Origin: Actinomycetes bacterium
GTDB lineage: Bacteria > Actinomycetota > Acidimicrobiia > Acidimicrobiales > Poriferisodalaceae
Assembly (NCBI GenBank): GCA_024228575.1
Contig: JAAETH010000466.1
Location: 1 to 64,000, forward strand
Length of the DNA stretch: 64,000 nucleotides
Direction of reading: 5' to 3'
The notes beneath the pieces are model-generated. The model did no database searches, was not told the origin of the DNA, and saw nothing but the letters and a program-made list of their open reading frames with translations. Each line of letters opens with the position of its first letter. Within the stretch, counting starts at the first letter, position 1. Below, one piece after another: positions 34,097 through 44,120 of the stretch. A program made the position numbers and the translations under genes.

Positions 34097-34107
34097 CTCA
34101 TCTGTGC

Positions 34108-34206
34108 ACCTTGGGGAGCTCGTGAGAGTCGGGCTGAGAGGGCGACCAGCACGAACGCACCGTCGCCGACCCCTTGAACCTGTCCGGGTAATGCCGGCGT
34201 AGGGAA
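34108..34206 (+). promoter_or_regulatory. TPP riboswitch (THI element)
   Basis: The conserved core is readable: GGGGAGC at 34111, GGGCTGAGAGGG around CTGAGA (34132-34137), ACCCCTTGAACCTG, then CCGGGTAATGCCGGCGTAGG and GGAA. These are the pyrimidine- and pyrophosphate-sensing arms of thiamine diphosphate riboswitches. It ends about 30 bases before the thiB start, so it most likely controls ribosome access or transcription of thiBP by thiamine diphosphate level. Confidence 0.95.
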
Positions 34207-34235
34207 CCGGTCATCGGCCGGGAAAGGACCACGAA

Positions 34236-41983: not shown

Positions 41984-42361
41984 GTGACCACACATGCCGA
42001 TCTGGTCGAGTGGTGTCTCGCCCAACCCGAGTCCGAGTCGACCAGACCATTCGGACCCGATGTGGCGGTGTTCAAGATCGCAGGCAAGATGTTCGCTCTG
42101 GTCCCCGATGCCGCAAATCCGGCGACCATCTCGCTGAAGGGCGACCCGCTCGACAACGAGCGGCTGCGTCACAAACACACATCGGTGACCAGCGGTTATC
42201 ACCTGAACAAGAAGCACTGGAACACCATCACGTGCGATGGTGATGTCGGCAATGCCGAGATCCGCGAACTGATCGAGGACAGCTACGACCTGGTGGTCGA
42301 TTCGTTACCGAAGAAACACAGGTTGCGGATACAGGGACAGGTGCGAACTCAGGAGCCTTGA
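41984..42361 (+). CDS. MmcQ/YjbR-family protein
   Basis: A 125-residue CyaY-fold protein: LVEWCLAQPESESTRPFGPD, VAVFKIAGKMFALV, LKGDP and GYHLNKKHWNTI are the family landmarks, ending in IEDSYDLVVDSLPKKHR. Members are described as DNA-binding, but their cellular role is unclear. GTG start at 41984. The last 13 bases overlap the 3' end of the convergent peptidase gene. Confidence 0.9.
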   Translation: MTTHADLVEWCLAQPESESTRPFGPDVAVFKIAGKMFALVPDAANPATISLKGDPLDNERLRHKHTSVTSGYHLNKKHWNTITCDGDVGNAEIRELIEDSYDLVVDSLPKKHRLRIQGQVRTQEP

Positions 42362-43773
42362 ACCGCGTGGGCCGCGAGCATCTCGGCGACACACCCCGTG
42401 ACTCGTTTGGCCGTGGCGATGTCGAGGAACTCGTTCGGTCCGTGAGCGTTCGAACCAGGGCCAAGCACACCGGTGATGACAAACTGGGCCGTCGGAAACT
42501 TCGTGCCGAGCATCCCCATGAACGGGATCGAGCCACCCTCACCCTGGTAGCCGGCCGGACGCCCAAAATGTCGCTCCGAGGAATCGTCCAGGACGTCGGC
42601 GAGCCAGGGTTCGAAAGGTGGTGCTGCCCATCCGGGTCCGCTCTCGGCATCAGCGAAGGTGGCCGTGGCCCCATAGGGCACACGATCGGTGAGTGCCCTT
42701 GTGACCGCTTCGAGCGCAAGGGTCGGATTCGTGGTGGGGGGCAGGCGAAACGACAGCTTGGCCGATGTGCGAGGACGGAGGACGTTGCCGGCGTCGCCGG
42801 GTTCGGGAGCACCACCTAGGCCTACGACCGAGAGTGCCGGTCGCCAAGTCCTGTTCAAGATCAGCTCGACCACGTCCTCCTCGACGGGTCGCGTCGAGCC
42901 GGCGAGCGGCAGGGCGCCGACGAGTTCGTGGGCGAGGAGGGGTGCCGCGGCCTCGGCCTTGGAACGGATGTCGTCGGGTATTTCGGCGTGCAGTTCAGGG
43001 AGGCGGATGCGCCCGCTACCACAGTCTTCCACCCGATCGATGAGGTTGCGAAGGATACGAAACGATGAGGGCACAACCCCGCTGGCCGAACCACTGTGCA
43101 TCCCCTGCTCGGCAACCTCGACTTCGAGCACTCCGCTGACGAGACCGCGCAGCGACGTCGTCACCCAGAGTGCCTCGTAGTCGGCGGCGCCCGAGTCGAG
43201 GCACACGACAAGACCGACATCGCCCAAACGGTCGGCGAGATTGTCGACATGGGCCGCGAGGTCGGGGCTGCCCGATTCTTCGCCTGCCTCGATGAGGACC
43301 ACCAGCCTGGCGTGAATGCCGCCCGAGGCCACGAGTGCCTCGACGGCCGTGAGCGAGGCGAACATCGCGTAGCCGTCATCACCTCCGCCTCTGCCGTACA
43401 GACGCCCATCCTCGAGAACCGGTGTCCAAGGGCCCTTGTTGTCGTCCCAGCCCTCCATCTCGGGTTGTTTGTCGAGATGGCCGTACAACAGGACCGTGTG
43501 TTCGCTGACCGCAGCACGATGGGCCGGGATCTCACACACGAGGACAGGAGTACATCCCTCGAGTTCGACGACGTCGACGGTCATCCCCTCGATCGGGCGT
43601 GAACGCGCCCATGATGCGAACAACTCGACGGCGGCGGCCATATGGCCATTGGTCGCCCAATCGGGATCGAAGGCTTCGCTGAGGTTCGGGATGGTTATGT
43701 ACTCGTGCAGCGTCGGGACGACGTCGTCATCCCAGACGGAGTCGACGTGATCGGTCAGTTCATCGAAACCCAT
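42349..43773 (-). CDS. M20-family metallopeptidase (dipeptidase-like)
   Basis: A 474-residue cytoplasmic zinc peptidase of the M20 family. The metal-binding landmarks are present: TVLLYGHLDKQPEMEGW with the first His/Asp, RGGGDDGYAMFA, the catalytic EAGEESGSPD, and QGEGGSIPFMGML near the C-terminus, with the inserted dimerisation domain (GMHSGSASGV) between. Closest in shape to CNDP-type dipeptidases. The ATG at 43773 has a strong GGGGGAGGAA ribosome site. A structured leader of about 270 bases with a terminator-like hairpin precedes it. The 3' end overlaps mmcQ by 13 bases in convergent orientation. Confidence 0.93.
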   Translation of the reverse strand: MGFDELTDHVDSVWDDDVVPTLHEYITIPNLSEAFDPDWATNGHMAAAVELFASWARSRPIEGMTVDVVELEGCTPVLVCEIPAHRAAVSEHTVLLYGHLDKQPEMEGWDDNKGPWTPVLEDGRLYGRGGGDDGYAMFASLTAVEALVASGGIHARLVVLIEAGEESGSPDLAAHVDNLADRLGDVGLVVCLDSGAADYEALWVTTSLRGLVSGVLEVEVAEQGMHSGSASGVVPSSFRILRNLIDRVEDCGSGRIRLPELHAEIPDDIRSKAEAAAPLLAHELVGALPLAGSTRPVEEDVVELILNRTWRPALSVVGLGGAPEPGDAGNVLRPRTSAKLSFRLPPTTNPTLALEAVTRALTDRVPYGATATFADAESGPGWAAPPFEPWLADVLDDSSERHFGRPAGYQGEGGSIPFMGMLGTKFPTAQFVITGVLGPGSNAHGPNEFLDIATAKRVTGCVAEMLAAHAVQGS

Positions 43774-43812
43774 TGGTTCGGTTCCTCCCCCTCGTCCCGG
43801 CAAGGAACATGG

Positions 43813-43914
43813 TGAAAAAGAAGAAACCCCGAGCCACTTCATCGGCGACCACACGACATGTCGTCGGGTGGCCATCAGATGCCGCGGTCGGACAGGGCCG
43901 CGAGGCTCGGGGTT
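43813..43914 (-). terminator. Terminator-like three-way hairpin before the M20 gene
   Basis: On the minus strand an 11-bp perfect stem (AACCCCGAGCC at 43914-43904 pairing with GGCTCGGGGTT at 43835-43825) closes a 68-base loop that can itself form two hairpins (one around ACGACATGTCGT, one CGCGG/CCGCG). It is followed at once by TTCTTCTTTTTC, a U-rich run. It lies about 25 bases before the M20 ribosome site, so it could attenuate that gene. Alternatively it simply ends the transcript of the upstream gene. Confidence 0.6.
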
Positions 43915-43993
43915 CCGGTGGTCCGGGTTGGAGTCGCCACCATTGGCCGCAACCCCAGAGGGCAACGGCCGGAGGCAACCCGTGGCGGGTGCC

Positions 43994-44035
43994 TCAGCGC
44001 CCGGCCACCTCCAAGGTCCTACTTTCAGAAATCAT
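43994..44035 (-). CDS. Possible 13-residue leader peptide
   Basis: ATG at 44035 encodes MISESRTLEVAGR and then a stop. An AGGAGG ribosome site 10 bases upstream is among the strongest seen in the window, which is unusual for a chance frame. It precedes a series of hairpins and a terminator-like structure upstream of the M20 peptidase gene, the layout of translation-coupled attenuators. The peptide is not clearly enriched in one amino acid, so the sensed signal is unknown. Confidence 0.45.
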   Translation of the reverse strand: MISESRTLEVAGR

Positions 44036-44120
44036 GTAGTCATCCCCTCCTTTCTTTGGTGACCCGATGTTTGCACATCGAAACCCACGCTGCGAGTCGG
44101 TTGGCAAACACGGTGCAGAT

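Follow-up and report, generated by a model that had tools for sequence, protein, structure and literature searches.

What kind of RNA lies ahead of the M20 peptidase gene in this stretch of 64,000 nt (the window) from a member of the Acidimicrobiia, and does it act on the gene that it precedes? A preliminary description, made from the letters of the window alone, listed on the minus strand a strong ribosome site, a 13-codon frame, hairpins, a junction-closing stem, a U-rich run and then the ribosome site of the M20 gene, and read them as a leader of that gene, either a translation-coupled attenuator or a riboswitch with its expression platform, matching no named class. Every one of these parts is present (Table 1). 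Comparison with relatives bears out a translation-coupled element: a structured RNA whose short frame is translated, whose helices covary and which ends in a terminator. That it is the leader of the M20 gene, and that it belongs to no named class, was not borne out.

Anatomy of the element

The core of the terminator stem, CCCCGAGCC/GGCTCGGGG with flanking pairs, closes the junction and leads into UUUCUUCUUUUU, which ends at 43815. GGGGGAGG begins 22 nt beyond this U-rich tail, ahead of the M20 ATG at 43773. On its other side the element is flanked by a gene for a PALP-family enzyme. The fold of the 347-nt stretch is better than that of dinucleotide shuffles (z -2.55), with 1 of 100 shuffles doing as well. 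That the anatomy is not a product of chance follows from its homologues: a BLAST match in the same genus (E 3e-51), a match to the Rfam family RF02471 (E 9e-6) and a match to our own covariance model, R1 (E 2.8e-11).

The window copy is nevertheless aberrant compared with its relatives. Lost from it is TGGTCC, which in them makes the ribosome site complete; its -10 region is weak, and a clear -35 is seen neither in this copy nor in its family.

Table 1. Features of the element and its downstream neighbour, by position in the window
Feature	Positions	Strand	Remarks
Putative promoter -10 region, TGC-AAACAT, extended -10 type	44067..44075	-	same position as TANNNT of relatives; match weak
Helix P1b, 5' strand CCAA	44056..44059	-	at predicted transcript start; pairs with 44011-44014
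Extended Shine-Dalgarno sequence AGAAAGGAGG	44046..44055	-	shorter than the full form of relatives, AGAAAGGAGGTGGTCC, the complement of the 16S rRNA 3' tail
Micro-ORF MISESRTLEVAGR, 13 codons and TGA	43994..44035	-	ATG at 44035, stop 43996-43994
Helix P1b, 3' strand UUGG	44011..44014	-	within the micro-ORF; covariation
Helix P3, 5' strand GGUGGCCGGG	44000..44009	-	last micro-ORF codons; pairs with 43917-43927; predicted in the window fold
Hairpin P2	43972..43995	-	immediately 3' of the stop codon; minimum-energy fold; varies among relatives
Conserved single-stranded motif GCGACUCCA, of GCGAAUCCA type	43929..43937	-	ahead of the P3 3' strand; found in all classes examined
Helix P3, 3' strand CCCGGACCACC	43917..43927	-	similar to the 16S anti-SD
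Intrinsic terminator	43815..43916	-	stem 43916-43904 with 43835-43823, two inner hairpins, U-rich tail
Match to custom covariance model R1, 5' domain	43992..44062	-	E 2.8e-11, 48.8 bits
Match to Rfam RF02471 (Ms_IGR-5), full model length	43817..44060	-	32.3 bits, E 9.2e-6; gathering score 45
M20 peptidase gene	42349..43773	-	downstream neighbour, outside the conserved element; Pfam PF01546, E 3.7e-21

Family identity and distribution

The covariance searches proposed in the preliminary description, against Rfam and with a custom model, place the element in a named family. At its own thresholds Rfam calls nothing at this site. In a permissive search RF02471 aligns over positions 1-184 of its 184, at 32.3 bits against a gathering score of 45, and the order of that model (ribosome-site segment, P1, P3, terminator) is kept in the window. 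The gap in score is bridged by intermediates, since loci across the phylum grade from 176 down to 25 bits with RF02471. Relatives found by BLAST in the same taxonomic family share the 5' domain, and members of the genus and family that are free of the losses in the window copy link it to the rest.

Model R1 covers 69 positions of the 5' domain and was built from 73 diverse sequences, among them the window sequence and undisputed members of RF02471. Membership is thereby supported by an independent model that includes such members, while the Rfam score stays short of the gathering threshold. Both helices that characterise the family, P1b (CCAA/UUGG) and P3 (GGUGGCCGGG/CCCGGACCACC), are present in the window and covary in the family. 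Judged by these matches, the element is a divergent member of Ms_IGR-5 (RF02471), a known but little-studied family of actinobacterial sRNAs. It stands apart in scoring below the cut-off, in an extended ribosome site that is partly lost and in its place before an M20 gene.

With the Rfam model, 57 of 297 Actinobacteriota genomes have a match, each in single copy, and 25 of these matches exceed the cut-off. R1 matches 148 of 397, the window included and nearly always with one copy per genome; 94 of the 198 genomes in the class of the window are matched, as are 83 of 149 in a second class, and roughly half or more of those searched have no match. A cyanobacterial control group of 146 genomes yielded one weak match, an isolated one (G481:C1:1479149-1479214, E 9e-5) in which a frame could not be parsed. 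The range of the RNA extends from mycobacteria and Streptomyces to the Acidimicrobiia, mostly with one copy per genome, and no ribosome site could be stronger than the one it carries. Published data record its expression in three species: in S. avermitilis both the start and the end of an sRNA transcript have been mapped (PMC8780764), RNA-seq supports the sRNA in S. lividans (PMC8079986), and the expressed M. smegmatis sRNA ncMSMEG15794c overlaps IGR-5 (PMC10454040).

Several lesser observations belong here. The RF02471 seed is too narrow: R1 matches 37% of the genomes sampled where the Rfam model matches 19%, the two samples overlapping without being identical. One family in the class of the window (f100) has members with genomes of ~1 Mb that do without the RNA, which suggests that it is dispensable in reduced genomes. 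Three loci retrieved by sequence pattern, L134 and L137 (Cyanobacterium, Acidobacteria) and L121 (Arthrobacter), were dropped: R1 finds nothing in two of these genomes and, in the third, only a weak match (E 4.5e-4) at another site. L230, L233 and L234, weak or chance matches to the model, were not used. A phage origin was set aside after the pattern used gave no match in IMG/VR.

A reading frame kept open

RF02471 is filed as an sRNA gene; that it carries a translated frame is the proposal made here. A start-like triplet 9-12 nt after GGAGG is in frame with the stop 3' of P3 in 149 of 150 loci, and this holds although the distance from the ribosome site to the stop falls in all three phases (45, 83 and 24 loci); the nominal binomial P of 1e-69 should not be read at face value, as the loci share ancestry. 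Among 147 distinct apical loops, 132 have an in-frame start and none has an out-of-frame start only. The micro-ORF is 10-16 codons long across the family, and its stop always lies five codons after the E codon.

A further set of 122 distinct parsed loci, found by the model and mostly outside its seed set, gives the same picture. The frame is open in all 122. ATG, GTG or TTG stands in frame in 92, compared with 31 such triplets out of frame, and in the remaining 30 the in-frame triplet at the expected spot is ATT, ATC, CTG or ATA, near-cognate starts being a weaker criterion. Judged from this conservation of the frame, the micro-ORF must be translated. Ribosome footprints have been recorded on Ms_IGR-5 in M. 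abscessus and M. smegmatis by authors who regarded such RNAs as lacking clear evidence of translation (PMC4974804).

Two features of the frame may be recorded alongside. Whole families (L242-L247, L250-L256 and others) apparently start it with ATC, ATT or CTG. The stops are TAG, TGA and TAA in 116, 38 and 11 of 165 loci, respectively; a predominance of TAG is unexpected in high-GC actinobacteria and may reflect structure or slow termination.

What is kept is the frame and not the peptide. Most families read R-T-x-E-V-x-x-x (of the RTLEVAGR type), whereas some read the same nucleotides, GGAGGTGGC...TAG, in a frame shifted by one base and so spell GGGSS or GSGGTSG, with an in-frame start and the same stop position retained. 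The first base of the Arg codon is free (AGG, CGG, TGG or GGG) and the GGAC is held. This change of frame between families, together with the free first base, indicates selection on an open frame and on RNA pairing rather than on amino acids.

A functional peptide was rejected on the same change of frame among families. A micropeptide gene of the R-T-x-E-V type would account for the recurrence of RTxEV and of 'SDS'-type residues in many families; since whole families use the other frame, the Arg codon varies where GGAC does not, and the conserved residues coincide with RNA helices, we regard it as very improbable.

SgrS is a well-known dual-function sRNA that encodes a peptide. VcdRP of Vibrio cholerae (PMC8672173) is of the same kind and, like Ms_IGR-5, a stand-alone sRNA with a real short ORF. 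Dual-function sRNAs keep the sequence of their peptide, whereas in Ms_IGR-5 an open frame is kept over the same nucleotides and the peptide is replaced altogether. An sRNA with ribosome footprints is commonly written off as noise or else taken for a peptide gene; here evolution separates the two. In the open-access literature searched we found no description of the frame, of the full 16S complementarity or of a function of Ms_IGR-5. What is new is the conservation of translation without a conserved peptide, together with complementarity to the full 16S tail; the locus itself adds a divergent member to a family already known.

Helices that overlap the frame

The absence of covariation in related genomes had been named beforehand as an outcome that would count against the element; covariation was found for both P1b and P3. 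In the two-helix structure 93.4% of cells pair. P1b has 58 double-change cells against 15.6 in shuffles, a signal destroyed by sliding the strands 1-3 columns, and in a tree-aware test none of 2000 permutations matched the joint changes at three of its pairs. Single-sequence folding rarely predicts this helix (5% of 64 sequences), and the case for it is its covariation. P3 covaries in the shuffle test, is supported in the tree-aware test at two of five pairs, and is often predicted by single-sequence folding.

Other pairings fared differently. P1a (GUCC/GGAC) is nearly invariant and displays no covariation. A pseudoknot of NGGACN with NGUCCN in the terminator was suggestive in shuffles and mostly unsupported on the tree (13 of 2000 permutations at one pair, the other not significant), and was discarded. 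For two loci from the M20 clade, L002 and L005, folding predicts an alternative off state in which the 3' arm of P3 pairs with the ribosome site.

Each helix has one strand inside the micro-ORF, P1b its 3' strand and P3 its 5' strand. Because the frame overlaps two covarying helices in this way, translation and folding exclude each other.

Neighbours, promoter and independence from the M20 gene

An M20 gene adjoins the element only in five loci (L001-L005), from the genus of the window and three nearby genera of one family; in the rest of the phylum the RNA stands alone. Where the downstream gene could be called, it lies on the same strand in 70 loci and on the opposite strand in 99, with varying identities, the calls being crude ones by length and codon-position GC. 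Of 200 homologous loci, 140 have TANNNT at 18-19 nt and 116 have TTG at 41-43 nt, both counted upstream from the ribosome site. This promoter stands at a fixed distance in most of the phylum and sets the start of the transcript at the base that opens helix P1b. The terminator is the element's own in the window, and the promoter, seen across the phylum, is weak in this copy. Since the neighbours vary in identity and strand outside the M20 clade, we favour an autonomous sRNA, and the published transcripts from S. avermitilis, S. lividans and M. smegmatis agree with an independent transcript.

Could the element still be an attenuator of the M20 gene, in which translation of the micro-ORF alters the folding and so turns terminator read-through into M20 up or down? 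The order of parts invites this reading: M20 follows the element in five loci of four genera in one family, with a classic U-run in the terminator; the M20 start lies 42 nt beyond that run, behind a ribosome site of its own, and no promoter is evident between the two; and in L002 and L005 the pairing of the ribosome site with P3 described above is predicted. Yet the same RNA is conserved in some 150 of the genomes sampled, where the genes downstream are unrelated or lie in the opposite orientation. Moreover, P3 and the terminator stem share no strands, so that opening P3 would not obviously undo the terminator, and L005 has a possible leaderless promoter at the M20 start (TACGGT, 8 nt before the ATG). 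We therefore consider attenuation of M20 an improbable account of the element, and as a general explanation the M20 leader was dropped, M20 being absent downstream outside L001-L005. The annotation of an M20 leader in the window is corrected accordingly: the M20 gene is a neighbour and not an established target. A clade-specific attenuation of M20 in the genus of the window and the nearby genera is possible and would be compatible with a translation gate.

A ligand-binding riboswitch with an expression platform was likewise suggested by a compact structured RNA ahead of a gene. No riboswitch model matches the region at E up to 10, there is no conserved downstream gene, and conservation centres on the ribosome site and the reading frame; we give this reading almost no credence. 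The window does contain a TPP riboswitch, above the Rfam cut-off (57.1 bits), at 34102-34224 on the plus strand and away from the element.

Translation as a proposed gate

Taken jointly, we put at roughly 70% the probability that the locus is a divergent Ms_IGR-5 sRNA gene, an independent unit ending at its own terminator and encoding a translation-gated sRNA. In such a gate, a ribosome loaded by the extended site would read the frame, opening P1b and P3 on the way, and halt where P3 ends; an untranslated RNA would close. Translated and untranslated RNA would then differ in fold, and the fold, the stability or an exposed 3' segment, GAAUCCA...YCACC, would report the initiation of a ribosome on the RNA. 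Candidate contact surfaces are the conserved GAAUCCA motif and, once translation has freed it, the YCACC arm. The translation gate is most likely the property that bears the function.

In attenuators of the trp, ilv and whiB7 type, the movement of a ribosome through a short leader ORF competes with RNA helices. Ms_IGR-5 would have this competition in common with them, but it has neither a regulated run of codons nor a conserved gene downstream.

The extended ribosome site

The 5' segment of the RNA pairs at 16 of 16 bases, G-U counted, with the 16S tail GGATCACCTCCTTTCT in 141 of 165 distinct loci, a figure that describes the motif rather than tests it, as the loci were partly selected with it. 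A total of 120 loci had been fetched by sequence pattern or belong to the seed set, so that the conservation of the motif among them is in part a matter of selection; the result on the frame is not. Each genome of the relatives contains the 15-mer GAAAGGAGGTGGTCC a single time, and outside the element only the 16S gene has it, the GATCC form in the opposite sense being most simply the 16S gene itself.

Extended Shine-Dalgarno sites in S. aureus go with weak, non-canonical starts (PMC13009471). Ms_IGR-5 resembles them in its long SD-antiSD pairing near the start and in its non-canonical starts. The S. aureus sites belong to ordinary mRNAs, whereas here there is one site per genome, complementary to the full tail and placed in an sRNA.

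The main rival to a translation gate starts from this complementarity. The RNA could be a ribosome decoy, its extended site capturing free 30S subunits or the maturing 3' ends of 16S rRNA, with the micro-ORF merely recycling ribosomes. A site that matches the entire mature 16S tail in most loci, and is found nowhere else but in the 16S gene, counts in favour of such a decoy, and the S. aureus precedent for long sites with weak starts (PMC13009471) is echoed in the 30 of 122 loci with ATT, ATC, CTG or ATA. A decoy leaves unexplained, however, the covarying helices and the fixed stop at the end of P3, and an RNA present in single copy would have to be very abundant to titrate ribosomes. We hold it to be unlikely, if less so than attenuation of M20.

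We tentatively propose, as a wider reading that may well prove wrong, that Ms_IGR-5 is a phylum-wide translation-sensing RNA, in which the reading of a meaningless micro-ORF, loaded by full pairing with the 16S tail, would be the conserved function and would switch the fold of a regulatory RNA with its action elsewhere. If translation is indeed the signal, the RNA would be a general sensor of ribosome availability in a medically and industrially important phylum.

Two loci, L204 and L206, have a copy of the 16S tail, GGATCACCTCC, 3' of the P3 region; this is a possible internal anti-SD, able to close the RNA's own ribosome site.
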